Source: Bacteroidales bacterium | Lineage (GTDB): Bacteria > Bacteroidota > Bacteroidia > Bacteroidales > Muribaculaceae | Assembly (NCBI GenBank): GCA_910575615.1 | Contig: CAJTEX010000007.1 | Location: 1-64,000, forward strand | Length of the DNA stretch: 64,000 nucleotides | Reading direction: 5' to 3' | Shown here: piece after piece, positions 14,625-58,309 of the stretch | How the letters are laid out: each line of letters opens with the position of its first letter | Position numbering within the stretch: the first letter of the stretch is position 1 | The notes under the pieces: generated by a model | What the model was told of the DNA's origin: nothing | Seen by the model: only the letters and a program-made list of their open reading frames with translations | The model's database searches: none | Position numbers and translations under genes: made by a program

Positions 14625-14630
14625 TGCTTA

Positions 14631-36454: not shown

Positions 36455-36455
36455 T

Positions 36456-38198: not shown

Positions 38199-39179
38199 TT
38201 AAAGGTTTGGAAATAAAGATTGCTGAACAGGCTTCTCGCGCAAAGTCTTGATTGCAGAAACAAACGTTTTATCAAATTTGTGCAAGTAGCCTTTTGCCAA
38301 TGGAACAGGTTCCATTAGCATTTTCCAAATATCATTGGATGCCTTGAATATCATATCAACACTGATTCCGGATGGAATTTCATCGTTTTTATCCAGATAA
38401 CCATTCAGATATTTCTCCGATGGACTTGATATTCCAAGCCGATTGCAGATAAGCCATGAGATTGATTCAGCCTCAAATTCTCTTGCACCATGGTCTAATG
38501 GTCGATATTGCCACCATTCCTTGGGTGTACATGGCGCACAAATATGGTGACAGAAGAAATGGCCAAGCTCATGGATTATACTTGCGAACCGCTCTGCATC
38601 GTCTGCTTTGGAATTTACACTCAGTAAGAAATTGGCTGGATATTTTAGATTATGATTTCCAATCTTAATATCAATCGTTTCTTCTTTTTTATCTAATCTC
38701 ATTATTTTGGCGCAGAAATCTCTGCCTGCGATCATCGATGGATTATATGCTATCCCGTATGGTGAAAGATTTTTTAGAAGAATTTGATATTGAGAACTGT
38801 TGACATTGCCATTCGCCTCAAATGGTGCAGAAAGTTCTTCTATGACCTTTTCAATTTCTTCATCGTCAAACTTGCTGTCAGGCGACGCAAAGGTGTCAGC
38901 AACATCGAAAAGATACTCCAGTGGGCCAAAAGGGATGAGGACGAGAATAGGACGTGCATCGGGTTTTATGGCTCTACCGAAGAGCTTTTTCCATTTCCCA
39001 TCATTCAGAAGGTATTTGGCTCCGGGTCTCTGTATATACGCAAGCATAGAGTTATAGGGCGCCAAAACTTTCATGCTCTGACAGAATTTCATCATTGCAC
39101 GGAAGTTTGTTGAACTTCTATAACTCTTGACTCCAGAGAAAAGTGAGTCAAGTCTCTCTCCGGTAAATCCTGATTCCAT
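38199..39179 (-). CDS. ImmA/IrrE-like zinc metallopeptidase
   Basis: The 326-aa protein carries the HExxH zinc motif in IIHELGHFFCHH (about residues 205-216) with a downstream Glu-rich helix (GAREFEAESISWLICNRL) that supplies further ligands. The N-terminal half resembles the ArdC-like N-terminal domain often fused to such peptidases (NFRAMMKFCQSMKVLAPYN). ImmA-type enzymes cleave repressors or antitoxins. Here it could act on a regulator of the restriction operon, being 10 nt after hsdR; the substrate is unknown. Confidence 0.75.
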   Translation of the reverse strand: MESGFTGERLDSLFSGVKSYRSSTNFRAMMKFCQSMKVLAPYNSMLAYIQRPGAKYLLNDGKWKKLFGRAIKPDARPILVLIPFGPLEYLFDVADTFASPDSKFDDEEIEKVIEELSAPFEANGNVNSSQYQILLKNLSPYGIAYNPSMIAGRDFCAKIMRLDKKEETIDIKIGNHNLKYPANFLLSVNSKADDAERFASIIHELGHFFCHHICAPCTPKEWWQYRPLDHGAREFEAESISWLICNRLGISSPSEKYLNGYLDKNDEIPSGISVDMIFKASNDIWKMLMEPVPLAKGYLHKFDKTFVSAIKTLREKPVQQSLFPNL

Positions 39180-39188
39180 AGCTATTCT

Positions 39189-42100
39189 TTATGCTGCGAT
39201 AACTTCACTAATTAGTTTGATGTATTCAATCAAGGAGTTATAGCCTTGCTTAAATACCGTAGTGAAACTGTTGAATGGTGGAGATTGGAGAAGCTTGGTG
39301 CGGATGTCTCCGTTCTCACTTACATAGCGTATCAGATTGCGGAGATATTCCTCCTGCATCCTTGTCATTTCAGTGCCTTTAATCAGTTCACGGTATTTCT
39401 CAAACGCCGTTTCCTGCTCTATACCGATTATCGAACGGATAAACGCAGCCACATTCTCCCTATAAGGGTTCTTTTGTGTGGTTGCATCGTATTCCTCTCT
39501 TGTGCCAAGTTCGTGCCAGAAGATTTCTTCCAATCGTTTAATATCGCTCTCCGACAAATGCTCCAGGCGATAAATCTTCTGTAAAACAGGGTCATTGGGA
39601 AGATGTTCACGCAGATAATCCTCAGCTCGACGACGATATGTACGCGGAGGAGTTACAGAGATTCCAGTGTTATCTTTCTGGAATGTATCTTCAATGTTAA
39701 CTGTAAACGTCTTGTCACTCTTTCCTCCGTCAATGTACTGCAAGAGGTCTCGAAGTTCTATGCGTACCCTTTCGAGTGAACCGAGACTAAGCGAGTTCCA
39801 GAATTGGGAGGTCAACACTTCCTTGATGGTATCCATTTTAGCCATCACCTGAGGGATGGAAGCCTTCTTCTCTTTGAGATAACGGGCTATGCTGGTTATC
39901 TGAGTCTCGGTTGCACCTGCATTGACGGTCTCATCGACAAGAGCTAACTGTCGTTTCAGACAAAGAGCATCGAATTTCAATGCGGAAGCATCGGCCAATG
40001 TGTTCTTGAACAAAGGGGAAATATTTTCTTTCATCGCCATTGTGTCTCCCAAAGAGAGTGCAGTCATCGCATCAGGCTGCGATAATGACTCAACCAGTTT
40101 TAACTGTCGGCGCACATCAAGACGGCTTCTGTTCAGTTCCTTTATCTGCTTATGAAGAATCTCCTTCAATTCATCATGAAGTGATTTCGCATCTGGGTCA
40201 GATTGATACGACGCATCTTGGAGAATATACTTCAAGTCGGTACGGAGATTGAAAATAGTTGCAACCACTGAAATAGATTTAGTAGGTTTCGCCCCATCTC
40301 CATTGACACTGAAATATTCAAAATTGCGGTAGTAGTCAAAGATGAGAAAATCCTTCTTATGCTGTCCCGGCCCAAATAGATCCGGACATAGTCGCGTTCC
40401 TCGGCCAATCATCTGCCAGAACTTGATTTTGGAATGAACAGGCTTAAAGAACACCAAATTGACTATTTCGGGTACATCAATGCCGGTATCGAGCATATCG
40501 ACAGAAACGGCAATCTGAGGAAGACTCTCCGGATTCTTGAAACGAACAATCAAGTCTGAAGAGTATTTCTCATAGTTGTCTATGACTCTACAAAAGTCAG
40601 GACCCAGATCGGGATAAAGTGCGGCAAAACGTTCTGCAATAAATACTGCGTGCTTATGGTTGTATGCAAAGATGATGGTCTTGCCAATCATAGTGCCGTC
40701 ATTTACGCGGTAGCCGTTTTCCATCAACTGAGTAAGCACATAGTCAACGGTATTCTGACTGAAGATGTATTTGAAAATCTCGGCAGCTGATATTTTGCGG
40801 CTGTAATCACCTTCGATACTTTGAATCACTTTCTCATACTCAAAGATTTCTTTAAGTTGCTCTCTTTCCTCGGGAGTCAGTTTTTCCGGGTCAATACCTT
40901 CAGTGAGGATCTGTGAGTTGTCAATGATGGGAACGAACGGCACAAGCCATCCGTCATCTATTGCTTCCTGATACTCGTAACTGTCCGTAGGGATACCTTG
41001 CTCCATACCGAAAAGTTCGTATGTAGAACGGTCTACTTCATCTCGTGGCGTAGCAGTCAGTCCCAAAAGCAAACCATCGAAATAATCAAAGATAGCGCCA
41101 TATTTGCCAAATACTGATCTATGTGCCTCGTCAATTATTACAAGGTCGAAGCGTCCGATTGAGAATGTTTTGTCCTCGCGGTCCAGATGGCTTATCATTG
41201 TCTGATAAGTTGAGAAAAGGATACGTGCAGACTTATCTCCGTCAGAGTCACGCAAAGAACTTACTGTCTGTGATGGGAGAAGTTTCTGATAGTTGAGCTT
41301 GGCTTGGTCAACAAGTTCGATTCGGTCAGCAAGGAACAAAACGTTTTTAACCCATCCATTGCGTACCAACAACTCCACCATTGAGATACTGACACGGGTC
41401 TTTCCAGTCCCTGTTGCCATCACAAGAAGGGCACGGCGGTGCATATCATTGAAGTGATTGGCTACAGATTGAATTACTCGTTTCTGATACGGGCGGTTGG
41501 TAATTCTATCATCAATCGACAGGTCAGATATGGCATTTCGGCTACGCTGGGCAATCATGCGACGCAGCTCATCACGAGTATGAAAGCCCATCAAAGGACG
41601 CGAGGGATAACCCTGACCGTCTATGATGTTTGTTTCAAAACCGTTGGAATAATAAATCACCGGAAGTTCGCAAGCATATTTGTTTTTAAGACATTCTGCA
41701 TAAAGCTCTGCCTGATGCCGTCCCTTTGCCGGATCCACGCTGCTACGTTTGGCTTCAATTACGGCGAGCGGAGTTCCGTCATCATCGAAAAGTACATAAT
41801 CCGCATAACCGATTCCTGTATTATTGGGCATATTATATGCAGTGTATGGTTCAGCAGCCATATCTAAATGGTGATATGCTGGAGAATCTTCATGTACAAT
41901 TGCATCAGATAAGCGACTCCCCACTTCTATCTCAATGCAAGCTTGACCGGCTATAATCTCTCCTTTCTTTTCTGAAACTTTCCAACCTGCTTCACGTAGC
42001 AACAGGTCAATATAAAGACGCCGTGTCTCTGCTTCTGAAAGGTCATTGACTATTGGCTGCGCCTCAACAGTCTCCGGTTGTGCCGTGGTTGTTTCAGCCA

Positions 42101-42623
42101 CTTCTGCAGCGGCTGTTTCTGCCTCAGCCGTTGTGACAGCTTCAACCTTTTCTGGCTGGATTGAGAATCTCGGTCTGCGCGGTTTTTCTCCTTGTTCAAG
42201 CAAAGACTTGTCAAACGGAGGCAGTTCAGGGATCAATCCCCATGCCAATGCGAAAGAACCGACAAAATAATAAAGATTCAGGACTGCAAAGAATGACTCT
42301 CTGCGGCCAACATGCCCGGCATCGCCCCCAACATGTGAGGCATTATTACCGATTTTACGTATATAGTGAATACGTTTCATCATTTCCGGGCTATCTACGA
42401 AAGCACTGAAACGATCATCTGTAGACAGTTCAAGCAAGGTCACGCGGTCTTTTGTCACCCAGCCCTTCAAACGATAGATCGTCTTGACCATCGTTTCGAG
42501 AGCAAGACGAGCGCTATGTGCCGAAATCATAGGATTAGAGGCTTGAAATTCCTCAGCCGTGGCACAGTGTTGATAGGCCGATCTAAGTCCTTTTACATCT
42601 TTTAGTATGTCGAAGTTCTTCAT
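39189..42623 (-). CDS. hsdR: Type I restriction endonuclease subunit R (unit 2)
   Basis: The 1144-aa protein has an N-terminal DUF4145-like helical domain (1-130). An Ala/Glu/Thr-rich linker follows (160-190), then a PD-(D/E)xK nuclease with Asp275 (GYADYVLF) and Glu290-Ala-Lys292 (AVIEAKRSS). The SF2 motor has Walker A MATGTGKTR (402-410), DEAH in VIIDEAHRSVF and motif VI FWQMIGRGTR. It is a different subtype from the unit 1 HsdR, so the two systems were acquired separately. It follows hsdS by 12 nt and precedes the peptidase gene by 9 nt. Confidence 0.9.
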   Translation of the reverse strand: MKNFDILKDVKGLRSAYQHCATAEEFQASNPMISAHSARLALETMVKTIYRLKGWVTKDRVTLLELSTDDRFSAFVDSPEMMKRIHYIRKIGNNASHVGGDAGHVGRRESFFAVLNLYYFVGSFALAWGLIPELPPFDKSLLEQGEKPRRPRFSIQPEKVEAVTTAEAETAAAEVAETTTAQPETVEAQPIVNDLSEAETRRLYIDLLLREAGWKVSEKKGEIIAGQACIEIEVGSRLSDAIVHEDSPAYHHLDMAAEPYTAYNMPNNTGIGYADYVLFDDDGTPLAVIEAKRSSVDPAKGRHQAELYAECLKNKYACELPVIYYSNGFETNIIDGQGYPSRPLMGFHTRDELRRMIAQRSRNAISDLSIDDRITNRPYQKRVIQSVANHFNDMHRRALLVMATGTGKTRVSISMVELLVRNGWVKNVLFLADRIELVDQAKLNYQKLLPSQTVSSLRDSDGDKSARILFSTYQTMISHLDREDKTFSIGRFDLVIIDEAHRSVFGKYGAIFDYFDGLLLGLTATPRDEVDRSTYELFGMEQGIPTDSYEYQEAIDDGWLVPFVPIIDNSQILTEGIDPEKLTPEEREQLKEIFEYEKVIQSIEGDYSRKISAAEIFKYIFSQNTVDYVLTQLMENGYRVNDGTMIGKTIIFAYNHKHAVFIAERFAALYPDLGPDFCRVIDNYEKYSSDLIVRFKNPESLPQIAVSVDMLDTGIDVPEIVNLVFFKPVHSKIKFWQMIGRGTRLCPDLFGPGQHKKDFLIFDYYRNFEYFSVNGDGAKPTKSISVVATIFNLRTDLKYILQDASYQSDPDAKSLHDELKEILHKQIKELNRSRLDVRRQLKLVESLSQPDAMTALSLGDTMAMKENISPLFKNTLADASALKFDALCLKRQLALVDETVNAGATETQITSIARYLKEKKASIPQVMAKMDTIKEVLTSQFWNSLSLGSLERVRIELRDLLQYIDGGKSDKTFTVNIEDTFQKDNTGISVTPPRTYRRRAEDYLREHLPNDPVLQKIYRLEHLSESDIKRLEEIFWHELGTREEYDATTQKNPYRENVAAFIRSIIGIEQETAFEKYRELIKGTEMTRMQEEYLRNLIRYVSENGDIRTKLLQSPPFNSFTTVFKQGYNSLIEYIKLISEVIAA

Positions 42624-42635: not shown

Positions 42636-43751
42636 TTAAGAGAAATAATACTGCATCCGTTCTGCCATCAGCATTTCGGCATCGGCTAATTGCTGACGGA
42701 GCAAATTATTTTGAAGATTTATAGAGTCCATTTGAGCCGCAAAAGCTTTTTGCATGTCAATAGGAGGGAAAATAATAGGCAAGAGCCTGATGTCTTTAAC
42801 ATTAATTTGTCTAAGTGTAGCTCCTTTAGTTTTGTCTTGTATAATGCTATTTATCTGGGGCATTCTAAGGCAGTAATACACAAATAAGCGTTCCCCAAGC
42901 TTAAGTCTTGCAGAAACCAAACCTCTTGTAATGTTTCCTCCCTTCAGTTCCTCAGAAGCTAAGGAAATGACTCCGGTAACACCTCGGCAACTTATAAATA
43001 TCTCATCTCCTTCTAATTTGGTACGCTGATATTTTTGGGCAATAGGTGGGTCAACCCTCTTTAAATTTTTCAGATATATTACCGGAGAAGACATATCAAT
43101 AGATCTGACAACAGGAACACCATTGGGAACCTCCTCTCCAGGTTGAACTATTCCATAGGTCAACTTACAATCATCTGTAACTATATCTTGCAACTGTTTA
43201 ACTTCCCAGCCTTTAGAGTTTGCTACCGGGTCACCAAAAGTGGTAAGGAAGATGGATTGAGCCAAATCATCAAGATCGGCTATCTGTTCCCGGTAACCAT
43301 CAATTACCTCTTGCAACGCATCGAGTTCTGAAGCAATTGATTCTTGCTCTATGATTTTGGGTACCAGTATCTTCTCTGATTTATAGTGCCTAAAATAAAT
43401 ATGAGGTATGGCAGCGCCCTTTACATATTTCGCAAGATTTAATGAAATCAAAAGGTATTTCAAGAAATCAATATTGATGTTATCTTGGGGGAATATATAC
43501 TGCATAGTACCCACTAATGATGATTTAGGAGGATATTTGTTAACTCGTCCAACTCCTGAGCCATCTTTAACAATACCTATATATTCTTTATCTTGATGGT
43601 AAAAATCAATATTACCAACAATTCCACTTGCGCCAAACAATAGGTATTCTCCTTTCCCTATCTCTGTCTTTGAAATAGTTATATTGGATGTGCCGTTTGT
43701 GCAGATTTCTCCTAAATTACACTTTTTCCACTTACTCTTATCAACCTTCAT
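42636..43751 (-). CDS. hsdS: Type I restriction specificity subunit S (unit 2)
   Basis: From ATG 43751 (MKVDKSKWKKCNLGEIC) this is a 371-aa HsdS with two target-recognition domains (about 1-165 and 185-340). The helical spacers are IEQESIASELDALQEVIDGY and PIDMQKAFAAQMDSINLQNN. Half-domain order is normal. It sets the recognition sequence of the unit 2 system. The start is chosen because the upstream frame begins with TTG; the ATG is two bases after the hsdM stop. Confidence 0.9.
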   Translation of the reverse strand: MKVDKSKWKKCNLGEICTNGTSNITISKTEIGKGEYLLFGASGIVGNIDFYHQDKEYIGIVKDGSGVGRVNKYPPKSSLVGTMQYIFPQDNINIDFLKYLLISLNLAKYVKGAAIPHIYFRHYKSEKILVPKIIEQESIASELDALQEVIDGYREQIADLDDLAQSIFLTTFGDPVANSKGWEVKQLQDIVTDDCKLTYGIVQPGEEVPNGVPVVRSIDMSSPVIYLKNLKRVDPPIAQKYQRTKLEGDEIFISCRGVTGVISLASEELKGGNITRGLVSARLKLGERLFVYYCLRMPQINSIIQDKTKGATLRQINVKDIRLLPIIFPPIDMQKAFAAQMDSINLQNNLLRQQLADAEMLMAERMQYYFS

Positions 43752-43753
43752 AC

Positions 43754-45250
43754 TCAAGAGTTTAGGAGACGTTGAAATTCAGCAAAAGCATTGTCAATCT
43801 TAGACTGACGTTCTTTCATTCGGGTGATGATTGTCTCAGGAGAGTCATATTCAATGACCTCACGCTCCACTTCGTGATAACGCTTATAGCTTAGGTCAAA
43901 CCCATTCTCTCTGATTGTCTTAACATCGACAAAGAATGACTGAGATTTACGGTCACGATTATTCTCCGCTTCCAAGTTGTGAAAACGGGATACGATATCC
44001 GGAATGTCATTGCGATCAGGCTGTGGAGAACGCTGCGATGTTAAGGAGAAGCCATCGGCTCTCATATCGTAGAACCATACTTTATCAGTGCCTCCTGTGC
44101 CTGTCTTGGTAAAGATAATGATTGCAGTGCTTACACCACTGTAGGGTTGAAACACTCCACTCGGCATCGTAATAACCGCTTTGAGACAATGTTTGTCGAC
44201 AAGAGCGGAACGAATGGTTTTATAAGCGGCTCCATCACCAGTCAGAACTGTATCAGGAACAATTGAAGCACAACGACCTCCCGGTTCGAGCATACGCATC
44301 ATCAAGGCCAAGAAGAGCAATTCTGTCTTCTTGGTGGTCACAGCAGAAAGAAGAGAGTTGGCTATATCGTCTCTGTCAAGACTTCCAGCAAAAGGAGGAT
44401 TCGCAAGACAGAGGGTGTATTTGTTAGTATCAGAATTATCATCTGACAACGAATTTCGATAGAATAGCTGCGGGTCAGTAACATCATGGAGCATCATGTT
44501 CATACAGCCAATTCGCATCATCGAGGCATCAGAGTCTGAGCCAAAGAAGGTGTCATGTTCATAACGTCGCTTGGCTTCGATACCAAGAAGTTCGTCAGCC
44601 TGATTCTCTGCTATGTATTTCGCTGCTTCCATAATGAATCCGGCACTACCCATAGCAGGGTCACAGATTTTGTCATCAAGGGTAGGTCGCATAAGGTCAA
44701 CCATCATCTTGATGATATGTCGAGGAGTACGGAATTGACCATTCGTTCCACTGGCTGCCATCTTTCCAAGCATATATTCATATACATCGCCCATCATATC
44801 CGAACCATCTTGAGTCAGTTCCTCTATACCCTCTACTACACGCGAAAGGAGACGTGGATTGGTTATCTGGAATACAGTGTCTTCCATAGCCCGACTATAT
44901 GCTGACCCTTCTCCACCGATATATCGAAGGAATATGAAAGCGTCATTTCGCACACGGTTGAGCATCTTTGCCGGTTCCATCTCTTTGAACACATGCCAGC
45001 GCATCTCCTTGTATGGCACCTCCTGATCGGTGGCCGGGTTCTTCCAGTCTCCGGGAAGAAAGACAGGGTTATCAACACTGTCACCGGTAAGATTGGCTAT
45101 CTGCTCCTTCTGACGCTCCCGGTCATCGAGCATCTTCATAAAGAGCAGATAGGTCATTTGTTCAAAAATGGCCGATGGCTGAGTAAAACCATTATTCCAG
45201 AATGTCTGCCAAATGGCATCGACCTGTTGTTTCTTTTCGCCTGTAATCAT
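43754..45250 (-). CDS. hsdM: Type I restriction N6-adenine methyltransferase subunit M (unit 2)
   Basis: The 498-aa protein has motif I ICDPAMGSAGFIMEA (about residues 196-210) and catalytic NPPFAG (about 286-291). The N-terminal helical domain is HsdM-like (LLFMKMLDDRERQKE) and the C-terminal coil pairs with HsdS. This is the active methylase partner of a second, degenerate methylase-like protein (46384-49341) encoded two genes upstream. Spacing to the receiver gene is 6 nt. Confidence 0.9.
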   Translation of the reverse strand: MITGEKKQQVDAIWQTFWNNGFTQPSAIFEQMTYLLFMKMLDDRERQKEQIANLTGDSVDNPVFLPGDWKNPATDQEVPYKEMRWHVFKEMEPAKMLNRVRNDAFIFLRYIGGEGSAYSRAMEDTVFQITNPRLLSRVVEGIEELTQDGSDMMGDVYEYMLGKMAASGTNGQFRTPRHIIKMMVDLMRPTLDDKICDPAMGSAGFIMEAAKYIAENQADELLGIEAKRRYEHDTFFGSDSDASMMRIGCMNMMLHDVTDPQLFYRNSLSDDNSDTNKYTLCLANPPFAGSLDRDDIANSLLSAVTTKKTELLFLALMMRMLEPGGRCASIVPDTVLTGDGAAYKTIRSALVDKHCLKAVITMPSGVFQPYSGVSTAIIIFTKTGTGGTDKVWFYDMRADGFSLTSQRSPQPDRNDIPDIVSRFHNLEAENNRDRKSQSFFVDVKTIRENGFDLSYKRYHEVEREVIEYDSPETIITRMKERQSKIDNAFAEFQRLLNS

Positions 45251-45256: not shown

Positions 45257-46372
45257 TTAGAATTTTGAGTCGCGTTTGCACCAAAAGTTTATGGCATTCA
45301 TTTCCTCATCAGGATTGGCAATGAGGAAATTATCATACCAACGGATGAAGTCACAAAGTCCCATTGCAAGGGAGCGGAGCATATAGGGAGAATTGCCGAC
45401 ATGAGGCAGGTATTTGTCAAGGTTCATAGCAATTTCAACTTCTGCCTCGGCAGTATGAGCCGCGCCACCGGTTTGGAAAACGGCATCTTTAAGCCAGTTT
45501 GCAAGCTGTTTTGGTAAGATGGGTGCTTCAGTCAGACGCTCAATCTTTTCCCAAAACTTTTTGTCGCTGTCTTTACACTGCTCTGGTTTTTCAGGTTGGT
45601 CTGCACCAAGAAACAAACTACTCCATGATAGATTAACCTGCTCCTTTTGACCCTTTGAAACAATATTTGTAGGTAGGATCCCCATCCTTACCATATGACG
45701 GAATATGTATTCCAACGCTTTACGAAGGTCAATATACCGACGATTGTAGTCAGCATTTGTTGTGCCTTTGAAATGGATAGGCACGAGCAGTGGCATCAAA
45801 TGGAAGCCGACATCAGCAGCCAAACCTAATTTGTCGAGAGCCGTGAAAACATCAGGATACAGGTCATTCTCAATCTGGAGTTCCTCATTGTAGTGGTTTA
45901 CCTGCGTGCGAATGCGCTCAAAAAGTAGCTGACGCTCATATCGCTCCTCATTGCCGTATTTGACCTTTGCGTTTTTAGAGTAAAATCGGCGATTAGTAAG
46001 TTTTACCCAGCTCTCGTCCCATTCGTTGATGTCTGGAATCAAGTCGCGAATGTCATCTTCACCTTGGCCTGAAAGAACGTACCAAGGAATTGTACGATCT
46101 TTTCGAGCCGCAATCTTCCCGATTCGAGTTATGACGTTCATCAAAAATCTGTCAGCTTTATCGGCATCGCCTTTCTTATACTGGCACTTAGCATCCAGTA
46201 TTATAGCCTGCCATCGATCATAGTCTGATTCAAGTGCAGCTTCGGCTTCTTCCCAACATGGGAATACTGTCAACTGTAAATCACCGCACATTTCAGCCTC
46301 TCCAGGATAGGAGTTTGTCACCAGAGGGTCATTTTCGACCCAAAGAACCTGTATCAAATCGTTTTCACGCAT
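45257..46372 (-). CDS. Receiver-domain protein linked to the restriction operon
   Basis: The first 140 residues of this 371-aa protein look like a divergent receiver: acidic pocket Glu13 and Asp15 (LWVENDP), phospho-acceptor Asp60 (AIILDAKCQ), Ser101 (YVLSGQGED) and Lys133 (RFYSKNA). The C-terminal 230 residues are helical with no DNA-binding motif (residues 190-290 contain LRKALEYIFRHMVRMGILP). It lies 11 nt after the methylase/kinase fusion gene, the likely phosphodonor, and 6 nt before hsdM. It probably transmits a signal to the restriction enzyme rather than to DNA. Confidence 0.7.
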   Translation of the reverse strand: MRENDLIQVLWVENDPLVTNSYPGEAEMCGDLQLTVFPCWEEAEAALESDYDRWQAIILDAKCQYKKGDADKADRFLMNVITRIGKIAARKDRTIPWYVLSGQGEDDIRDLIPDINEWDESWVKLTNRRFYSKNAKVKYGNEERYERQLLFERIRTQVNHYNEELQIENDLYPDVFTALDKLGLAADVGFHLMPLLVPIHFKGTTNADYNRRYIDLRKALEYIFRHMVRMGILPTNIVSKGQKEQVNLSWSSLFLGADQPEKPEQCKDSDKKFWEKIERLTEAPILPKQLANWLKDAVFQTGGAAHTAEAEVEIAMNLDKYLPHVGNSPYMLRSLAMGLCDFIRWYDNFLIANPDEEMNAINFWCKRDSKF

Positions 46373-46383
46373 AGTCTCAAATT

Positions 46384-49341
46384 TTAGAGGATTCTAACGG
46401 TGTTAGTGTTTGTAAAGATCAGTCGGTAGATGACCGGAAATTCTGCGTTAGGCTCGGATTTAACCTCAACAGAACCCAGACCTTCCATTAATGACTTTAT
46501 TTCAAAGCCACCTTGTCCAGAATGAAGAGTGCCTTCAGAAGAGCTTTCATTTAAGGCAGTAGAGAAGCCGCTCATCAACACATCATCGCTGGTCACACCT
46601 TCTTTAAGAGGGAGACCGTTGTTTGCGATAGTAATCACAATATCACCATGTACTTCCTGCCAGTCGAAGCGAATTTCATTATCGCTTTTGTCGGAAGAAA
46701 ATCCGTGAGCCTTGGCATTGGCAACAATATTGTTGAAGATCCGTTCTACCAAACGCATGGGAGCAGTGAACACGTTCATTGCATCTGTGTGATAGTATGT
46801 CACATCACCAGTCTCTTCATTGATGTCCGGAATATCGGCAGTATTGTCATTGCCAACGTTCACCATCCTGACGTTAGGCGTGGAATGTGTGCGTATGTAG
46901 TCTTCGATGAATCCATAAGGATTAATTTCGACTTCTTCTCCCCAATCGGCTTTCTCTAATCTCAATGATTCCACTTGTTGTTCAAGTGTGGAGATTGCGT
47001 AGCCGATGGTGCCCATCAGGTTCTCAACTGATATTGGATTGACGCGACCAACAATGTCGTTGAAGCTGATTTGGCCTCCTTTTTTCTGGGCAAACATGTT
47101 CATCTGCTGCCAGTTTGAAGATAAGGCAGAGAGAGTCTGAATCATGGCATGACGAGTGCTACGGACTTCGCGTTTATACCTTTCGTGAGCTTCGTGAAGT
47201 TCAAGAGCCATATCACCCATTTCTGCTGTCAAGACATCATTTATGAGCTTCTGTCTTTCTTCTTCACTCTGGTAATCTGGCACGAAAACCTGAGATAAGT
47301 CAAGTCGGTTAAGTCGCGCTATTGTAAGTCCTTTGGCGTGTGCGGTTATCTGGTTAGCAACCACCTTGGTTGAAAGCAGTGCCGCCAAGTATTGGGCACT
47401 TACTCCGTCAGCGGGCTGAAGAACTTTGATGAATCCGGGAGGGAAAGCAATCTTATTATGGAAGTTCTCCACAAAGACTGTTCGCACTTTGCCACTTACA
47501 ATAGCTATTAGAACCGCGTCTCCGTAAATGGCAACATGATTTCTCGCAGAAGTCGCTTTCTTCTCCACGCACTTTTGAGGAGCAAAAGGTTTGCGATGCA
47601 ATGCCTCTGGGAGCGACGAACCAACAAGATTGTATTCAGTATTCCCATCACCACGACATTCTTTAATTTCTGAAGCGAAATCAGAAAGAGGCTTACCGTT
47701 TTTTGGTCTCGGAGTCAGGTAAATCTCTGGAATGAGGTTACAATCATTTAAATAGGAATATTTCACTATGGTTGCGACATCATCATCAACCACATACTCA
47801 CCTCTTTCTCCGAAGTCAACAAGGTCGTCCTCCATATCCTTGACGAACTGCTCCCAGTCAAAAGTTGTCTGGCGATATACACTCTTTGCAAACCGAGTAT
47901 AACCCGAAGCGTCAGCAAAGACTATATCCTCATTTTCGATCCCTTTGGAAATAACGATAGCTGCTTGAGATATTCCGGTCCCATTGAAAATATTAGATGG
48001 AAGAGAAATAACCGCTTTCAGAGCCTTGTCTTCGACAAGCTTAGTACGAATTGATTTCGATGCCTGACTTTGGTCGAAAAGGAAACCGGCAGAAACAATG
48101 CAAACTAATGTGCCTCCGTCTTCAAGTTTGTCGTAAAGGTGGCTTACAATGTCGCCTATCCGCTGACCTTTCTCCATTAGATAGGCTGGAGAAGTAATAA
48201 TGGCTTTGTATTTTTTGTCATCCGACATGGTTGCAAATGAATCGCCCAATTTTATATTGGTTCGAGAAGTTGCCCCTGCGGCGAATAAACGAATCTGTCC
48301 CAATGCCCACGTTTCAGCAATGCGTTCCTCACCTACAACTGGATTAGGAAGAGCGATTGCATATGAATTCGCTCCAGCAAATGGATTGTAGACAATGGTA
48401 TCCTGTGGGCAAGATACTAACGAGCACATGAAGTCTGTAACTTCTTGTGGTTGAATGAAACCAAAGGAGGATTCGTATTTCATTCCATTTGATGCGACAA
48501 CCTGCTGAAACACATCTTCAAGATGAGATGCAAGGAATGCCATTTCCTCTTGGCTCAATATTCCTTCAACAAAATCATTGCGAAAGAGAATGTCCTTGAC
48601 CTCATCGTTGGCTTTATCTCCGGCCGCTGTCAAGTAACATTCCAACAATAGTGACAATCCTGATTTCGAAAATACGTTTCTTGACAGTGCACACATCATG
48701 TATCGCGAAATAAGCTCTGATACATTGTAGGGCTTCGTATTATTAACGAGTGCTTCGATATCTGTTTCTTGCTCTTTTGCATCAGCGACCATCTCCTTTT
48801 GACGTTTCACCGAAGGCAGTCCTTCAATAGCACAGGTATTGCGGATGATGTCAAGAGGCTCAATCACGATTTCGCGATTGTTTTCAAGGTCGTAGTTGCT
48901 TATGCCGACTGAATTCCAGTCTTCGGGGTCAAGACAGGATGCGATGGTATGATTCCACTTCTCGAACTGACACATGTAAAACATATATTCGGGAGTGACA
49001 ATCGGGGCTAACCGCGCGGCAATAAGATAACCTTCTTTGTCCTTGCGAAGAGATGAAGGAATATAGACCGGCATCTTCTCAGAGGCAAGAATATAAGCCA
49101 TTGAGTTAGAGTGAGAGGTTATGACGAGTGTCGGAGAAGTTAGCTTACGCATTCCCTCTTTGGCTTCTCCAAGTTGAAGTTGACTGGGACGAACGTATAT
49201 AGAATCCCAATCCTTGGCGAAGTTCTGTGCCGAGAATATGTAGCCAACTTCTGGCTCCTTCACCTGCTCTGCATGAGCATAGAGAAGGATGTTAGAAACT
49301 TTAGTAGACTGAGCGGCGGTGTTGGAGGTTGTGTTGAGCAT
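46384..49341 (-). CDS. Fusion of degenerate type I methylase, specificity-like segments and histidine-kinase ATPase domain
   Basis: From ATG 49341 (MLNTTSNTAAQ) the protein is 985 aa. Residues 35-200 resemble an HsdS half. Residues 215-520 are HsdM-like, with a motif I-like YNPFAGANS (318-326), but SPAY (384-387) replaces catalytic NPPY/F. Residues 580-715 are again HsdS-like (AKGLTIARLNRLDLSQVFVP). Then a helix with His731 (STRHAMIQTLSALSS) and a HATPase with N-box FNNIVANAKAHG (869-880) and glycine-rich SGQGGFEIKSLMEGLG (941-956). It may sense DNA methylation or foreign DNA and signal through the next gene's receiver. The earlier start at 49395 would overlap the WYL gene. Confidence 0.75.
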   Translation of the reverse strand: MLNTTSNTAAQSTKVSNILLYAHAEQVKEPEVGYIFSAQNFAKDWDSIYVRPSQLQLGEAKEGMRKLTSPTLVITSHSNSMAYILASEKMPVYIPSSLRKDKEGYLIAARLAPIVTPEYMFYMCQFEKWNHTIASCLDPEDWNSVGISNYDLENNREIVIEPLDIIRNTCAIEGLPSVKRQKEMVADAKEQETDIEALVNNTKPYNVSELISRYMMCALSRNVFSKSGLSLLLECYLTAAGDKANDEVKDILFRNDFVEGILSQEEMAFLASHLEDVFQQVVASNGMKYESSFGFIQPQEVTDFMCSLVSCPQDTIVYNPFAGANSYAIALPNPVVGEERIAETWALGQIRLFAAGATSRTNIKLGDSFATMSDDKKYKAIITSPAYLMEKGQRIGDIVSHLYDKLEDGGTLVCIVSAGFLFDQSQASKSIRTKLVEDKALKAVISLPSNIFNGTGISQAAIVISKGIENEDIVFADASGYTRFAKSVYRQTTFDWEQFVKDMEDDLVDFGERGEYVVDDDVATIVKYSYLNDCNLIPEIYLTPRPKNGKPLSDFASEIKECRGDGNTEYNLVGSSLPEALHRKPFAPQKCVEKKATSARNHVAIYGDAVLIAIVSGKVRTVFVENFHNKIAFPPGFIKVLQPADGVSAQYLAALLSTKVVANQITAHAKGLTIARLNRLDLSQVFVPDYQSEEERQKLINDVLTAEMGDMALELHEAHERYKREVRSTRHAMIQTLSALSSNWQQMNMFAQKKGGQISFNDIVGRVNPISVENLMGTIGYAISTLEQQVESLRLEKADWGEEVEINPYGFIEDYIRTHSTPNVRMVNVGNDNTADIPDINEETGDVTYYHTDAMNVFTAPMRLVERIFNNIVANAKAHGFSSDKSDNEIRFDWQEVHGDIVITIANNGLPLKEGVTSDDVLMSGFSTALNESSSEGTLHSGQGGFEIKSLMEGLGSVEVKSEPNAEFPVIYRLIFTNTNTVRIL

Positions 49342-49372: not shown

Positions 49373-50398
49373 TTACAAGGGACTTGTGCAGTCATTCTTC
49401 AAAAGTCCATAAATCTTGCAACACTCTCCCAAAATAGATGTAATCTCATCTCTCAGTGCCAATGGCTCTAAGATTTCTACATCCTTACCGAACCCAAGAA
49501 TGGTTGCAGTTAATTCTTTGTTCGGTATGAGTTTCAATGTAATAGTCCTCTCAACGTCGTTATTCTGTTGTGTTGGATGAATAGGCTTGGCCTTGATATA
49601 AGGGTATCGAGGTTCGGAAAAGCGAAGAACCACTTTCTCTATTTTACCCCCTTTAGGAATGGTAACACCAATCACATCATAGAAATAATCGTCAGGATTT
49701 TCTATAATTGTATCTGGTATGAACTCAGCCTTTACCGGTGTGACTTCCTGTATTCTGTCCAATGGAAAAACCGATATGCTCTTAAATTCCGTGCTGTATC
49801 CTAAGATGTACCACCGATTATTATATTGCTTAAGATAATATGGGTGGATGAGAACGGCATAAGGAGGCTTATTGAATGGAGCATATAGCACCCTTATCGG
49901 TTGTTCGTTAACAATGTACCCAAATAGTTCTCTAAACCGTTCTATTCCTTGCAAATCCACATTGGAGTCAAACGATAAGATAGTTCTGTCGGAACCTTTT
50001 GCCTTATACTTACGTTTCAACTTCTCAATTATCTCATACATCCAATCAAACTGTGGCATCCCTCTGAAAGAGGCAAGCATCCTCACCGTGGTCTCTAACT
50101 CAGTAAGTTCTTCATCGGTTAAATCCACAATAGAGAACCCTTGACGCGAATAACGATAGTACCGACGTTGACCATCCCAATAGGCTTCAATCGGAGCCGA
50201 CATATTCGGGGAGGTCTTCATTTCCTGAATATCTGAGTAGATTTGACGCTTGCTTACCGTCTCCTTTTCGCTCAATTGGGCATACAAATAATCACACACG
50301 GCCTTCTGCAAGTCCTCAATGAAGAACTTGCGAGAGAAGTTACTGAAGCATTTGTCAAGAGCCTCGTAACGGAGACGTGCATGTTTATTCGTTGCCAA
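49373..50398 (-). CDS. WYL-domain transcriptional regulator
   Basis: The 341-aa protein has an N-terminal winged helix (KAVCDYLYAQLSEKETVSKRQIYSDIQEM, read in parts) and a WYL domain (residues about 145-220; IRVLYAPFNKPPYAV, then NNRWYILGYS). A WCX-like C-terminal strand-rich part follows. WYL regulators bind nucleic-acid or nucleotide ligands and control many phage-defence islands. It is between the XRE regulator and the methylase/kinase fusion, so it probably tunes the whole leftward operon. Confidence 0.85.
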   Translation of the reverse strand: MATNKHARLRYEALDKCFSNFSRKFFIEDLQKAVCDYLYAQLSEKETVSKRQIYSDIQEMKTSPNMSAPIEAYWDGQRRYYRYSRQGFSIVDLTDEELTELETTVRMLASFRGMPQFDWMYEIIEKLKRKYKAKGSDRTILSFDSNVDLQGIERFRELFGYIVNEQPIRVLYAPFNKPPYAVLIHPYYLKQYNNRWYILGYSTEFKSISVFPLDRIQEVTPVKAEFIPDTIIENPDDYFYDVIGVTIPKGGKIEKVVLRFSEPRYPYIKAKPIHPTQQNNDVERTITLKLIPNKELTATILGFGKDVEILEPLALRDEITSILGECCKIYGLLKNDCTSPL

Positions 50399-50417: not shown

Positions 50418-50636
50418 TTAGAATGGTTCTTGCGATACGGGTTCGTTCAATAAATCACGGACACGAACATTCAACTGCTCTGCAATAGCAAACAAGGTTT
50501 CCAATCCGGGCTGAGCCGAATTTGTACACCATTTGGAGACCGTAGCCGGGTCTTTACCCAATTGCTCCGCCAGCCATTTGTTCGTTCTCTTCTTTTCGAC
50601 TAATACGAGCTTAATCCTATTTAGGTCACGTTCCAT
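50418..50636 (-). CDS. XRE-family regulator of the unit 2 restriction operon
   Basis: This 72-aa Cro/CI protein with HTH NKWLAEQLGKDPATVSKWCT is closely related to the regulator of the unit 1 restriction operon: it shares KWLAEQLGK, ATVS and WC plus the AQP block. It is the first gene of the leftward operon and lies back-to-back with the qat promoter. It could therefore control both restriction and Qat transcription from one operator region. The start is ATG 50636, 22 nt after a -7 element. Confidence 0.8.
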   Translation of the reverse strand: MERDLNRIKLVLVEKKRTNKWLAEQLGKDPATVSKWCTNSAQPGLETLFAIAEQLNVRVRDLLNEPVSQEPF

Positions 50637-50666: not shown

Positions 50667-50709
50667 CTGAATTTTTCAGAACTAACATAATTATTTGTGA
50701 ATTTTTCAT

Positions 50710-50717
50710 TAACTTTG
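50710..50717 (+). promoter_or_regulatory. -7 element of the qat operon
   Basis: TAACTTTG followed by C matches the consensus. Transcription would start near 50724, which rules out the in-frame codons before that point and supports the qatA start at 50784, about 60 nt downstream. TTTG at 50694-50697 is only 12 nt upstream, so the -33 element is weak. Confidence 0.5.
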
Positions 50718-50783
50718 CAGCGCCATCCTCTCTCTACGGCCAATTCCGGCTTCCGAGCAACCCTGGGTGGAGCACTTAATTCC

Positions 50784-52598
50784 ATGTGGAAAGACTCAGA
50801 AACCAACATTGATTACCTAAATTTCAACTATCTTGTCGAAGTCATCACAGAGCTAGTGACAGACAATGATATCACCCCATCTACAATTGGCGTGTACGGA
50901 GATTGGGGAAGCGGAAAGTCAAGTATAATGAAAATGGTGGAGGAAAAGATTGAGTCTCAAAAAGACAAGTCAGTCATTTTCGTACATTTTAATGGCTGGC
51001 TGTTTGAAGGATATGAAGACGCGAAGACAGCTCTATGCGGTGCAATACTTGATGCGGTGCAAGAATATGTAACTATATTAGGAAAGTTTAAGGGGAAACT
51101 AAAAAGTTCTATCACTTCCCTTAAGAAGAAAATTGATGTGAACAAATTGCTCGGCAAAGGTCTCAAGTATTCTCTAGATTATTTTTTGACCGGAGGTATA
51201 GGAATTCTGGCAGATTTCACTCTCGGGAGCATTAAGGATGCTATTAAAGCAAAGGCAAACTCTATGTCAGAGAAGCAATTGACTGAGTTGTTAGACCTTT
51301 TCAAGTCGGAAGAATCAAAGCGAAATGAAATAGCCAACTTCCAAAAGGAATTTGCTAAACTCATTGAGGATACTAAGGTTAACCACATGGTGGTATTTAT
51401 TGATGAGTTGGACAGATGTGAGCCTGATACTATTTTGGATATCTTCGCAGCTATGCGTCTCTTCCTTTTCGCTAAAAATACTTCGTTTGTTATCGGTGCA
51501 GATGAGCGATTAATACGTTTCGCCATCAAGACTAAATATAAGGAAATTCCTGAGAACAATCTTGATATAGGCAAGGAATATTTAGAGAAGATGATTCAGT
51601 ATCCTGTTAATATTCCTGTTTTAAGCAACGAGGAAATAGAACAGTACATAGCGCTCATGCTTCTCGAAAAGGAACTAAAAAATAAGGAAGAATTTAATCG
51701 AATATTGACACAAGTCAGAGGTCTTAAGCCTTCCGAGAAGTTTGGCATAGAGCATCTTTCTTCAAATGGGAAATATTCCGAAAAGTCTAAGGAATGTTTT
51801 GATTTGGCACGTCAAATCGCAATCTCTTTATCCGGCATCAAAATGATTAATGGAAATCCTCGTCAATGTAAAAGATTCCTTAATACCCTATATTTACGAA
51901 TGGCAATGGCCAATTCCCGAGGGGTGGAGTATGACAAAAACGTTGCCGCAAAATTAATGTTACTGGAATATTATAAGCCGGAATTGTATGACAAGGTGGT
52001 TGATCCCAAAAACAAAGAGGATTTTGATGAAATCGAGTCAAACAAGGTGAAAGACAAGAATGTATTTAAGGCTGATCTGGAATCTTCAACATGGTTCTCC
52101 GAATGGCTTAAAATTCCATTCAAGTTATCCAACGTCAACATTGGAGATTATTATTATTTTTCTCGTAAGAGTTCCCGATTGAACATGTTCTTGAAAAGTA
52201 ATCTTTCTCCTACAGCCGAAAAGTGCTATGATTTCCTAAAGTCAGGAAATGCCACGGGAAGGAACAAAGCCGAAGCCCTATTGAAAGAGGTCTCTGCAGA
52301 AGAAAGCCTTTCTATACTAAAGCTGCTGAGTGATGATATGAATATTGGAGAACAAGTCGATAAAAGGATTTTCGAATCTTTCATTAGTCTAATAACTTGC
52401 CGTCAAGAGTTGAAGATTGAGGGTCTTAACATTGTGAAAGCGATTCCACTACAGAAACACGATGTAGCATTTGTAGGAAAGCTGACTCCTTTAATTGATA
52501 TACTTACAGATGCAGAAACATCTGAATTAGAAGGATTATACTCTCAAAATGAGCCATTGAGAAAAGCCTTCGAAGCCATTTGTGATCTAAAGAAATAA
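50784..52598 (+). CDS. qatA: QatA, KAP-family P-loop NTPase of the QatABCD defence system
   Basis: From ATG 50784 (MWKDSETNIDYLNFNY) the protein is 604 aa. It has Walker A GDWGSGKSS (39-47), a KAP-type insertion with hydrophobic helices (about 120-155, including TGGIGILADFTLG) and Walker B MVVFIDELDRCEPD (202-215). A conserved GNPRQCKRFLNTL follows. KAP ATPases are often membrane-associated and assemble defence complexes. Gene order KAP-B-QueC-like-TatD equals that of the described QatABCD anti-phage system. The intergenic distance to qatB is 4 nt. Confidence 0.9.
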   Translation: MWKDSETNIDYLNFNYLVEVITELVTDNDITPSTIGVYGDWGSGKSSIMKMVEEKIESQKDKSVIFVHFNGWLFEGYEDAKTALCGAILDAVQEYVTILGKFKGKLKSSITSLKKKIDVNKLLGKGLKYSLDYFLTGGIGILADFTLGSIKDAIKAKANSMSEKQLTELLDLFKSEESKRNEIANFQKEFAKLIEDTKVNHMVVFIDELDRCEPDTILDIFAAMRLFLFAKNTSFVIGADERLIRFAIKTKYKEIPENNLDIGKEYLEKMIQYPVNIPVLSNEEIEQYIALMLLEKELKNKEEFNRILTQVRGLKPSEKFGIEHLSSNGKYSEKSKECFDLARQIAISLSGIKMINGNPRQCKRFLNTLYLRMAMANSRGVEYDKNVAAKLMLLEYYKPELYDKVVDPKNKEDFDEIESNKVKDKNVFKADLESSTWFSEWLKIPFKLSNVNIGDYYYFSRKSSRLNMFLKSNLSPTAEKCYDFLKSGNATGRNKAEALLKEVSAEESLSILKLLSDDMNIGEQVDKRIFESFISLITCRQELKIEGLNIVKAIPLQKHDVAFVGKLTPLIDILTDAETSELEGLYSQNEPLRKAFEAICDLKK

Positions 52599-52602
52599 TT
52601 AA

Positions 52603-53442
52603 ATGGGAACATCGAATTTATATAAGGGGCCTAAAGGGCAGTCCCTATTGCCTGAAGGATATGAGGAATCGATAGATTGGGATAATAATCCCGATAATGT
52701 TGATTCTTCCGATGATACAGATACTTCTCAAGATAACCCTCAAGAAGATAAAGACCGACGGAAACAGCAACAAAACCAAGATGGAGGCGGTAACTGGTCT
52801 GCGGCCAAGAGAGCTATTACCAAAACTTCTGGAGGTGGTAGATCTGGCATAAGTCGTGCAGTTTCTTCGTATACAAAAGCGTTAGGAGGAGCAAAGAGTG
52901 CAGCTAAAAAATCCAAAGTAGCTCAATCTATCACCGTAGGTATTTATGATTTGTTTTCTGGTTCATCAGCACAAGTCAGAGAAAACCTTGAAAACATCGG
53001 AATAAAACTTGAAGGTCGATCGAATAGAGATATTTTTAACGAAATATGCAAGCGTTTAGCTCCAACACCTGACGATTTAGACAATTCAATTGCCAATAAG
53101 GCATTAAATGAAACAATCTCCGAAATTGTATCTGAAGAAGGTTTTGACACTTCGGACTTAGGCGTTTTCAATTCGGAAATGTTGAATAAAATGGTAAGTG
53201 GCTTTATAACAAATTACATTTTTGAAAAGCTTATTCATCAAACTGGATATGGCATGTTGATTAAGGGAAAATCTCCACAGGAGATTGAAACCACTGAAGA
53301 AAATCTCAAAGATTATATTGGGAGCATCGTGAGGCATGTTGTAAAGAAAAACCTGCATGAAGGAGTTAGCAAGAAAGATGTTAGAAAAATGATTAATAAC
53401 CTATATGAGAAATCATATGGAGTAATGGAGAGTATGGCATGA
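52603..53442 (+). CDS. qatB: QatB, partner protein of the Qat system
   Basis: The 279-aa protein has a low-complexity, acidic and glycine-rich N-terminal third (residues 20-95, with SSDDTDTSQDN and QQQNQDGGGNW) followed by a helical domain. It has no catalytic motif. In known Qat operons the second gene is an uncharacterised protein of this type, and the assignment rests on that position and length. It overlaps qatC by four bases (ATGA), so both are co-translated. Confidence 0.75.
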   Translation: MGTSNLYKGPKGQSLLPEGYEESIDWDNNPDNVDSSDDTDTSQDNPQEDKDRRKQQQNQDGGGNWSAAKRAITKTSGGGRSGISRAVSSYTKALGGAKSAAKKSKVAQSITVGIYDLFSGSSAQVRENLENIGIKLEGRSNRDIFNEICKRLAPTPDDLDNSIANKALNETISEIVSEEGFDTSDLGVFNSEMLNKMVSGFITNYIFEKLIHQTGYGMLIKGKSPQEIETTEENLKDYIGSIVRHVVKKNLHEGVSKKDVRKMINNLYEKSYGVMESMA

Positions 53443-54728
53443 CAAGAAAAATTGTATGTAAATTGAATGACAATGAGCACTTTCACATTGAGGGTGCTCA
53501 AGAAGTCAATCTTAATGATAGCCGAGACTATCGTTATACTCTTTGGAAGAGGGCTAAAAAGCATCTTTATCAAATTCCACAATTTTTCTCAGATGAGGCA
53601 TTAGATCTTTTCTATATCGCCTTGATGGTCTTTTGTGCAGACAAAACAGTTCGAAGAGGAGAAACTGTGGACGCCTGGACTCGCGATATAGAGATTTATA
53701 TGCCTGTACTCAAACCTGAAAAATGGGAAGAATTAAAAGATACTCTCAAAAAAGCTCTTGATTTTCTCACGGGCGATCGATGGTATTTGCATTTTAGAGA
53801 AAGAGCCTATACACAACACGAGACTTATTATCAGAAGAGAAAGTTTCATTATAGAAAGTCCATACCTACGATAGATACAGAAACTATATGTATGTTATCG
53901 GGAGGACTGGATTCTTTTATAGGCGCAATAGATATGCTCGCTAATGGGGAACGTCCCGTCTTTGTTGGAAATTATAATGGAGGAAAAGGTGTAAGCGTAT
54001 ATCAAAATTGCGTAATTAATAAACTTATAGATTATTTTGGCATTGGCAAAGAACGATTTTATCAATTTTACGCAGCTCCTATTCGTGGAAAAGAAGATAC
54101 GACGCGCTCTCGTTCTATGATGTTTTTTGCACATGCAATACTACTGGCTTCTGGTTTCGCACATCCAGTTAGCATATGTATACCCGAGAATGGTGTCATA
54201 TCCTTGAATATCCCTCTTACAACTCATCGAGTAGGAAGCTTAAGTACACGAACGACACATCCGTATTATATTGGTCTTCTTCAGTTACTGATTGATGGTC
54301 TTGGTATTCCAGTAAAACTAATCAATCCGTATCAGTTCTGCACAAAGGGTGAAATGATGAAACAATGCAAAGATCAGTTTTTTTTGAAAGAAAATTTCAA
54401 ATTCACAATGTCTTGCTCTCACCCTGATTTGTCAAGGTGGAGACACGAATCCGGTTCTAAACATTGTGGTGTATGTTTGCCATGTACAATACGCAGAGCC
54501 GCTATTGCGGCTTCTGGCTATGAAGATGACTCAATATACGGCGATCCCCAATACGCTAATAATGAAGCTCAGGCGAATCTCCTCTCATATAGATTGGGCA
54601 TACGGAAGAAAAAAGTTCCAATATTGGCAATCCAATTGAATGGGCCAATTTCTGAAAAACATGATGAATATTCACGTGTATATGAACAAGGCATAAAAGA
54701 GCTAAAAAACTTTATAGACACCCTATGA
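53439..54728 (+). CDS. qatC: QatC, QueC-like nucleotide-modifying enzyme
   Basis: The 429-aa protein carries the PP-loop SGGLDSF (about residues 153-159) of QueC-type ATP pyrophosphatases. A C-terminal zinc site follows (TMSCSHPDL, then KHCGVCLPCTIRRA), as in 7-cyano-7-deazaguanine synthase. An extra N-terminal domain of 130 residues distinguishes it from housekeeping QueC. It may modify a guanine base on protein or nucleic acid as part of Qat defence. It overlaps qatB and qatD by ATGA junctions. Confidence 0.85.
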   Translation: MTRKIVCKLNDNEHFHIEGAQEVNLNDSRDYRYTLWKRAKKHLYQIPQFFSDEALDLFYIALMVFCADKTVRRGETVDAWTRDIEIYMPVLKPEKWEELKDTLKKALDFLTGDRWYLHFRERAYTQHETYYQKRKFHYRKSIPTIDTETICMLSGGLDSFIGAIDMLANGERPVFVGNYNGGKGVSVYQNCVINKLIDYFGIGKERFYQFYAAPIRGKEDTTRSRSMMFFAHAILLASGFAHPVSICIPENGVISLNIPLTTHRVGSLSTRTTHPYYIGLLQLLIDGLGIPVKLINPYQFCTKGEMMKQCKDQFFLKENFKFTMSCSHPDLSRWRHESGSKHCGVCLPCTIRRAAIAASGYEDDSIYGDPQYANNEAQANLLSYRLGIRKKKVPILAIQLNGPISEKHDEYSRVYEQGIKELKNFIDTL

Positions 54729-55447
54729 CTCCTTTATTTGATACTCATTGCCATCTCGATTTGCTGAAAAATGCAACAACGGTATTATCCTCAATAGAGG
54801 TTCTGCCCGTTTATGCAATTTCAATGACAAATCTACCAGACCTATATATGCGCGAACAGAACTCATTCCAAAGCAAATATATTCGACTGGCATTAGGGTT
54901 TCATCCAGAACTAATTCTTAAATATCAGCGACAGATTCCATTAATGTGGGAATTACTTCCAACAGCAAAATACATTGGTGAGGTTGGGTTGGATTCCAAA
55001 GCAGACGGTAGAAAAGAGCAAACTAATTTTTTTGAGAAATTAATAAACCTATGCAGAGAAGATAACCAAAAGATCATCTCAATTCATTCCAGAGGAGCTA
55101 TTTCTGATGTATTAGAGATTATAGGTGAACAATACCTTTTTCACCCTATACTTCACTGGTTTTCAGGCAAACGTATGGAGTTGGAGTTGGCAATAGAAAG
55201 AGGATATTTTTTTTCTTTAAACAAAGCTATGTTAGAATCTTCCAAATTTACATCAATGTTATCATGCATACCGACAGACAAAATGTTATTGGAGACCGAT
55301 GCCCCCTTTATTGAAATGAAGAGAGGTTATGTAAATTCAATAGAGGATACCGTGGGAAAGCTTGGCTCTCTTTTGCATAGGAACAAAGAGGATATGAAAA
55401 GAATATTATGGGAAAATTTCAAAACTCTCCTATATTCTTCTGAGTAA
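54725..55447 (+). CDS. qatD: QatD, TatD-family metal-dependent nuclease
   Basis: The 240-aa protein has the TatD metal ligands His8 and His10 (FDTHCHLDL), Glu86 (IGEVGLDS), His121 (SIHSRG), His144 (LHWFSG) and Asp192 (LLETDAPF). TatD proteins are DNases. Here it is the fourth component of Qat defence and may degrade phage DNA or act on the modified substrate. It is the last gene of the operon, followed by a hairpin. It is somewhat shorter than housekeeping TatD (about 260 aa). Confidence 0.88.
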   Translation: MTPLFDTHCHLDLLKNATTVLSSIEVLPVYAISMTNLPDLYMREQNSFQSKYIRLALGFHPELILKYQRQIPLMWELLPTAKYIGEVGLDSKADGRKEQTNFFEKLINLCREDNQKIISIHSRGAISDVLEIIGEQYLFHPILHWFSGKRMELELAIERGYFFSLNKAMLESSKFTSMLSCIPTDKMLLETDAPFIEMKRGYVNSIEDTVGKLGSLLHRNKEDMKRILWENFKTLLYSSE

Positions 55448-58243: not shown

Positions 58244-58309
58244 GTTGTGACAGAGTTTTGAGATGAATAAATCAGTTGACTGTGACCATCGGGAGCGAAG
58301 TTGGTCACC

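Follow-up and report, generated by a model that had tools for sequence, protein, structure and literature searches.

A portable kinase–receiver cassette with a retired type I methylase/specificity module: a candidate controller of exchangeable downstream genes

Organization of the locus

We analyzed a 64,000-nucleotide stretch of DNA from a Bacteroidales bacterium of the Muribaculaceae (GenBank assembly GCA_910575615.1, contig CAJTEX010000007.1, positions 1–64,000; hereafter the window), in which a WYL regulator, a fusion of restriction-enzyme parts with a histidine kinase, and a receiver protein are encoded in a row ahead of a type I restriction-modification (RM) operon. This WYL – fusion kinase – receiver cassette is a portable, conserved unit.

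The operon opens with a 72-residue HTH_3 (Xre/Cro-type) regulator (50418–50636; on the minus strand, as are all features of the operon), followed by the WYL-WCX regulator (49373–50398) and the fusion gene (46384–49341). The fusion is composed of a first HsdS-like segment (residues 33–200; 48796–49299), an HsdM-like core (221–545; 47761–48735) in which the NPFAG motif is retained and SPAY replaces NPPY, a second HsdS-like recognition segment (555–710; 47266–47733), DHp helices (711–811; 46963–47265) bearing the phospho-acceptor His749 (codon 47149–47151), and a catalytic HATPase domain (821–999; 46399–46935); residue numbers count along a 1003-residue frame, and the annotated frame has 985 residues. 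The next gene encodes a receiver domain (residues 1–164; 45881–46372; Asp60 codon 46193–46195) and a helical C-terminal domain that may serve as output (45257–45880, stop codon included). Behind it lie hsdM (43754–45250), which retains NPPF, hsdS (42636–43757) and hsdR (39189–42623), all apparently intact.

A first-pass annotation of this DNA had read the 985-residue frame as a SPAY-bearing HsdM core flanked by HsdS-like segments and joined to a HATPase domain, the next gene as a receiver with Asp60, Ser101 and Lys133, and the genes after it as a normal hsdM/hsdS/hsdR set. Profile searches and AlphaFold models uphold the domain assignments of both proteins, and the three RM genes are present as described. 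The least supported domain of the fusion is the first HsdS-like segment: its profile match is weak, whereas that of the second segment is clear (HsdS itself has two recognition domains with spacer helices), comparison with solved structures gave no match for it, and, judged by length, it is present in 7 of the 64 family fusions described below.

Family, pairing and distribution

A profile of three receivers, searched against genome contigs with one genome per species, returned 60 loci. Together with the window and a plasmid locus of Myroides odoratimimus (L008), these form a 62-locus set with 64 receiver genes, L045 and L056 contributing two pairs each; loci L001–L021, apart from L008, lie outside this set, which is rich in Prevotella relatives and includes contigs that end early. 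By record title most loci are from Bacteroidota, and the labels outside the phylum belong to single metagenome-assembled genomes, whose labels can err (Fibrobacter, L074; Oceanicaulis, L076; Lachnospiraceae, L036; Erysipelothrix, L051).

As judged by profile, the fusion lies immediately upstream of the receiver on the same strand in 63 of 64 cases, and in the sole exception (L076) the upstream open reading frame (ORF) still has the His and a HATPase match. A WYL gene is found upstream on the same strand, at most five ORFs away, in 52 of the 62 loci, and immediately before the fusion in 41. The loci that lack one either show less than 3.3 kb before the receiver (L031, L033, L037, L051, L062, L067 and L076), carry WYL on the opposite strand (L066), or have no visible WYL gene (L071 and L077).

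Random draws of genomes, each including that of the window, gave a receiver match in 12 of 395 genomes across the phylum, with the fusion adjoining in 11, and in 20 of 393 across the order, with the fusion adjoining in 13. Weak receiver matches from the order-wide draw (L098–L101 and L103) were excluded from the family, the fusion adjoining none of them; L098, the one scanned, is a Response_reg and PglZ protein. No relative was found on viral contigs. Among plasmids, the receiver was matched in three Myroides records only, with the Myroides receiver as query, and a search with the window's receiver gave no match.

Tandem second pairs occur at L045:11159-13449, L056:8183-11576 and L125:7076-9548. 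The second kinase of L045 (437 residues) has an S-like front without a methylase core, and its S part resembles the first HsdS-like segment of the window (E 4e-18). Two receivers (L008:11297-12463 and L009:2774-3961) carry a C-terminal extension without counterpart in the window's receiver.

Signalling residues and loss of the methylase motif

In the family alignment, His749, Asn925, Gly927, Gly960 and Gly962 of the fusion are kept in 64 of 64 members, and the same holds for Trp11, Asp60, Lys133 and a Ser or Thr at position 101 of the receiver. The phospho-acceptor His lies in a DHp helix beside a HATPase domain, as in two-component kinases, and its partner has a receiver fold with the acidic pair, Asp, Ser/Thr and Lys of two-component receivers. 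In the AlphaFold model the DHp domain is formed by two helices (residues 711–771 and 790–811), and structure comparison matches the kinase half to HK853.

At its aligned position the [ND]PP[YFW] motif is present in 3 of 64 fusions (L065, L080 and L081), 9 rows having a gap at that point; 4 of 64 contain it anywhere in the protein. The hsdM ORFs of the same operons have it in 19 of 20 cases, the twentieth being half of a split gene. By this criterion the catalytic motif is lost, and the fusion is a former HsdM and not an active type I methyltransferase.

The most informative part of the fusion's anatomy is the junction: in the model, the recognition segment continues directly into the helix that bears the phospho-acceptor His; in HsdS, the recognition domain likewise precedes a long spacer helix. 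The spacing from Pro706 to His749 is 39–49 residues in 63 of 64 fusions, a constancy to be expected if a coiled coil relays the reader's state to the kinase.

We compared nonsynonymous divergence (dN) in ten pairs of relatives. The M segment has a higher dN than the kinase and also than the receiver in 8 of 10 pairs, the S segment in 7 of 10. The pairs that depart from this are L043/L044 and L052/L054, which are nearly identical, and, for the S segment only, L038/L042. All finite ratios of dN to synonymous divergence (dS) are below 0.5, several pairs being saturated at synonymous sites. Selection thus preserves the kinase and receiver while the M and S segments diverge fast, a pattern like that of a sensor or of a surface engaged in an arms race.

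Cargo and its exchange

We defined cargo as the same-strand run 3′ of the receiver with gaps of at most 450 bp. It contains hsdM in 19 of the 62 loci (17 of these with hsdS and 17 with hsdR) and a PIF1/RecD-like helicase group in 16. In the flanks of only about 1.5 kb available from the random draws, hsdM follows immediately in 6 of 10 other pair-bearing genomes phylum-wide and in 1 of 12 order-wide. Elsewhere the cargo consists of DUF1848 and a NERD-UvrD-like helicase (L022), NERD-UvrD and a HATPase_c_4 protein (L026), AIPR/MzaE (L057), or, in L038, a HAD protein and a DNA-processing-A (DprA-like) protein that weakly matches ShosT (for DprA the match was scored on L042). A Schlafen AlbA_2 protein precedes the helicase in L039, the one scanned, and in L043. 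Scans of L027, L029 and L077 gave ordinary metabolic or surface genes, and L051 and L059 stop at the contig edge.

Mapped onto a kinase-plus-receiver tree, the cargo labels of 43 genes require 9 changes, against a mean of 18.6 (minimum 13 in 500 shuffles) for shuffled labels; the UvrD label includes L035, matched over a 187-residue piece. Cargo is therefore partly inherited and partly exchanged. The clearest case of exchange is that of the window and L022. In the tree L022 pairs with L023 (support 100), and the window joins these two (100). Type I RM genes are the cargo of L023 and of the window, DUF1848 and UvrD that of L022. Similarity between the window and L022 spans HTH, WYL, most of the fusion and the receiver, ends at base 45250, which is the first base of hsdM, 7 bases past the receiver stop codon, and returns at 36388–35422 within the window's DUF1848 gene (35378–36499, minus strand), whose homologue is the first gene past the receiver in L022. 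A UvrD-like helicase gene follows in the window (32716–35376, minus strand), its homologue coming after DUF1848 in L022. Behind the window's hsdR, an M78 (IrrE-like) peptidase-like gene (38199–39179, minus strand; under the Pfam cut-off) has its homologue 3′ of hsdR in L023.

A PIF1-like helicase of about 690 residues lies repeatedly 3′ of the receiver in L036, L044, L124 and other Prevotella-type loci, and is a possible defence gene not yet described. Across the 12 genomes searched for it, the three best matches (G908, G914 and G915; 509–1570 bits) all lie behind a receiver, at about 1.2 kb or less, and the remaining nine genomes give at most 368 bits; linkage is the better reading, in preference to an unlinked core gene that happens to flank an insertion site. 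The 16 helicase loci form a loose group: L066 has a RecD-like helicase with a TBP-TOTE match and L031 is cut by the contig end. A separate cluster of 911–941-residue proteins occurs behind hsdR (L024:17126-19861; also L025) and directly behind the receiver (L040:11114-13939), with no family match in Pfam (L024) or in Pfam and PADLOC (L040).

Upstream regulators

An HTH protein match precedes WYL in 11 of the 52 loci; the remaining 41 gave none, 11 of those with RM. The HTH ORF is open across the match in the window, L023, L024, L025, L058, L061 and L074, all with RM, and in L059, where the contig ends; it is broken or partial in L022, L026 and L034, which have no RM. A repeat search found no operator palindromes before WYL, the conserved DNA there being the HTH gene. 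The window's WYL gene has WYL and WCX domains beside defence genes, as do regulators of the BrxR/CapW type; phmmer linked it to two other WYL regulators, named neither BrxR nor CapW (E 4e-4).

Other genes in the window

A divergent Qat-type system (50697–55447, plus strand) comprises QatA (E 8.6e-100) and QatC (1.6e-111) by PADLOC, a QatB under the NCBIfam cut-off (82.4 vs 100 bits), and a 240-residue ORF in the place of QatD. A second type I RM set (7138–17926, minus strand) contains N6_Mtase (15914–17926), Methylase_S (14631–15917) and HsdR-like (11244–14624) genes, and a Schlafen AlbA_2/HATPase_c_4 protein (7138–8802, minus strand) with 72% DNA similarity to L026 cargo. Between the cassette's RM set and DUF1848 lies a DUF4268 protein (36456–37559, minus strand) with a weak match to a NucS-like nuclease. 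Relaxase (56902–57894) and DUF3987 (59012–60430) genes (56902–60430, minus strand) suggest that this defence island lies on a mobilisable element.

Discussion

The domains, the one-to-one pairing, the invariant signalling residues, the dead methylase motif, the fast-changing sensor beside a slow-changing kinase and receiver, the portability and the cargo exchange are read from sequence; from them we infer the sensed ligand, the phosphotransfer, and the direction and target of control. We consider it somewhat probable that the cassette is a two-component controller in which a retired methylase/specificity sensor governs the downstream cargo. It would act as a self-contained cytoplasmic controller of the genes behind it; those that can be named are mostly defence genes. 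As a sensor, the M and S segments of the fusion would read DNA but no longer methylate it; once DNA or a phage product is bound, the kinase dimer would change its twist and phosphorylate Asp60 of the receiver; and the receiver, with the WYL regulator and in the window also the HTH_3 regulator, would alter the expression or activity of the cargo, that is type I restriction in the window and other genes elsewhere. A more specific version, in which the sequence or modification of invading DNA is what the sensor detects, the receiver and WYL then switching on whichever defence cargo follows, is tentative and in our estimate falls somewhat short of even.

The first-pass annotation had proposed a DNA-reading sensor that reports to a receiver controlling restriction. 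The dead-reader kinase paired with a receiver stands up across the family; control specific to restriction is not supported in the form proposed, since by the annotation's own check, co-occurrence with restriction genes, the downstream run holds hsdM in 19 of 62 loci. The best reading is that restriction is only one client of the controller.

The evidence is mixed on a narrower idea, that the sensor shares a target with the HsdS of its own operon. Over 17 loci the sensor segment is slightly closer to its own HsdS than to others (permutation P 0.012), own HsdS ranking first for 4. In BLAST at E ≤ 0.01, own HsdS is the best match for L072, L073 and L074 (E 0.002–0.007); L058, L061, L063, L075, L078 and L081 match only the HsdS of other loci, as does L068, whose own HsdS is absent from the set, and the window's sensor segment has no HsdS match. 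Other controls of the score test gave P 0.07–0.72 (three shuffles), 0.85 (kinase segment) and 0.18 (M segment). That the cassette also stands before genes unrelated to RM speaks for a broader trigger.

Several observations weigh against the proposed controller. Reversed sensor segments also show an excess for own HsdS (P 0.03), and the likeness to own-operon HsdS appears at best slight. Only 26 of 64 fusions retain motif I for S-adenosylmethionine (SAM) in its NPFAG form, so that not every member can hold SAM in the manner of a type I methylase. The residue after the phospho-acceptor His is acidic in only 3 of 64, which departs from HisKA (no Pfam HisKA match was found in the fusion family), and the first residue of the G1 box is Asn instead of Asp in 64 of 64; these two features leave kinase activity uncertain. 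Family scans of 44 receivers gave no recognised output domain. Finally, 26 of the 62 loci have neither hsdM nor the helicase group downstream, and several of these have no same-strand gene past the receiver, or ordinary metabolic genes.

Such cargo-poor loci could be accommodated if the receiver were itself an effector, whose C-terminal domain kills or inhibits once phosphorylation frees it, with the downstream genes as accessories. Arg217, Glu221 and His306 of that domain are near-invariant (63, 61 and 62 of 64), and among the 44 receivers three match OB_RNB and three an S1/CSD-like domain. However, the conserved residues may be structural, the scans gave no match to a nuclease or toxin family (the C-terminal fold was not searched by itself), and we hold this explanation to be quite unlikely. 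We give a little more weight, still regarding it as unlikely, to a post-translational gate without transcription, in which the fusion replaces one M–S half in HsdM/HsdS/HsdR and the phosphorylated receiver licenses or blocks HsdR; this fits poorly with the WYL regulator as standing partner and with the pair preceding non-RM genes or none in 42 of 61 clustered loci (L079, which duplicates the L009 contig, was excluded from clustering). The non-acidic residue after His and the Asn in G1 would suit a GHKL domain that is a mere ATP-driven clamp or structural remnant, MORC- or MutL-like, with no phosphate reaching the receiver, and in the available part of PMC8011034 RM-linked GHKL proteins of another family are tied to paraMORC ATPases. 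Against such a clamp stand the invariance of the His and of the receiver Asp, Lys and Ser/Thr, the modelled two-helix DHp and the HK853 match of the kinase half; we consider it very unlikely.

How bacterial immune operons are repressed and switched on is still largely an open question, and the named controllers are few in the portions of the literature available to us (BrxR/CapW, CapR, CapH with CapP, and CapK with CapS). The cassette points to a previously unrecognised switch for bacterial immunity. If the proposed two-component controller is correct, it was made from the recognition half of a restriction enzyme, and the general question of whether cells signal the presence of foreign DNA, besides cutting it, becomes approachable. 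Since its cargo varies, the cassette can also help to find new defence genes through whatever lies behind the receiver, candidates being the PIF1/RecD-like helicase group and the 911–941-residue proteins of L024 and L040.

Comparison with known systems

In line with the first-pass annotation, which did not know this arrangement from described systems, we found no description of the architecture in the open-access full texts searched (subscription papers and preprints were not covered). Cited papers are represented below by the parts of their text available to us. The type I methyltransferase M2S (EcoR124II; 7eew M–S enzyme) shares the M core and recognition fold with the fusion, which differs in having lost the catalytic motif and gained a kinase. 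The methylation-associated defence system (MADS; MAD2/MAD5 models) gives weak matches from its HsdM- and HsdS-type parts; membership was rejected, with scores far under curated cut-offs (fusion vs MAD5: 24.6 vs 400 bits). PMC12839542 mentions Schlafen RNases that are joined to a minimal histidine kinase and lie near BREX, and a figure legend on DefensePredictor names HATPase and REC among predicted-system domains (PMC13092281), so that overlap is possible. BrxR/CapW regulators (PMC12255303, PMC9122601) resemble the cassette in placing a WYL regulator beside varied defence systems; the difference is that no kinase or receiver is described there, and a term search of the main text of PMC9122601, reference list aside, found neither.

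The nearest described systems are HEF_HK/Response_reg_2 and CapK/CapS, both of which differ in their domains. The former (PF19191/PF19192; PMC8011034) likewise has an adjacent soluble kinase and divergent receiver near RM genes, and three pairs examined also have NNG in G1, but it is without the methylase/specificity fusion and mostly accompanies type II RM with C5 methylases. Membership was rejected: none of the 44 + 44 family proteins matches PF19191 or PF19192, the window's genome has no PF19192 match, and in profile comparison the receivers are unlinked (probability 0.2) and the kinases share only the ATPase domain (E 1.4e-5). In CapK/CapS, a GHKL kinase (HTH-STAS-GHKL) and its substrate (a STAS-wHTH repressor) are encoded upstream of varied immune operons; of the 443 cases counted in that work, 88 have an RM neighbour (Chambers et al. 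2026, PMC13373217). The placing of a kinase and partner upstream of exchangeable operons is shared with the cassette; no STAS match was found in the window's proteins or in family scans, and here the partner is a receiver and the sensor a dead methylase/specificity module. Kinase-based control of defence operons is known, and what sets the present cassette apart is the sensor derived from a dead restriction methylase/specificity module, the receiver partner and the portability.

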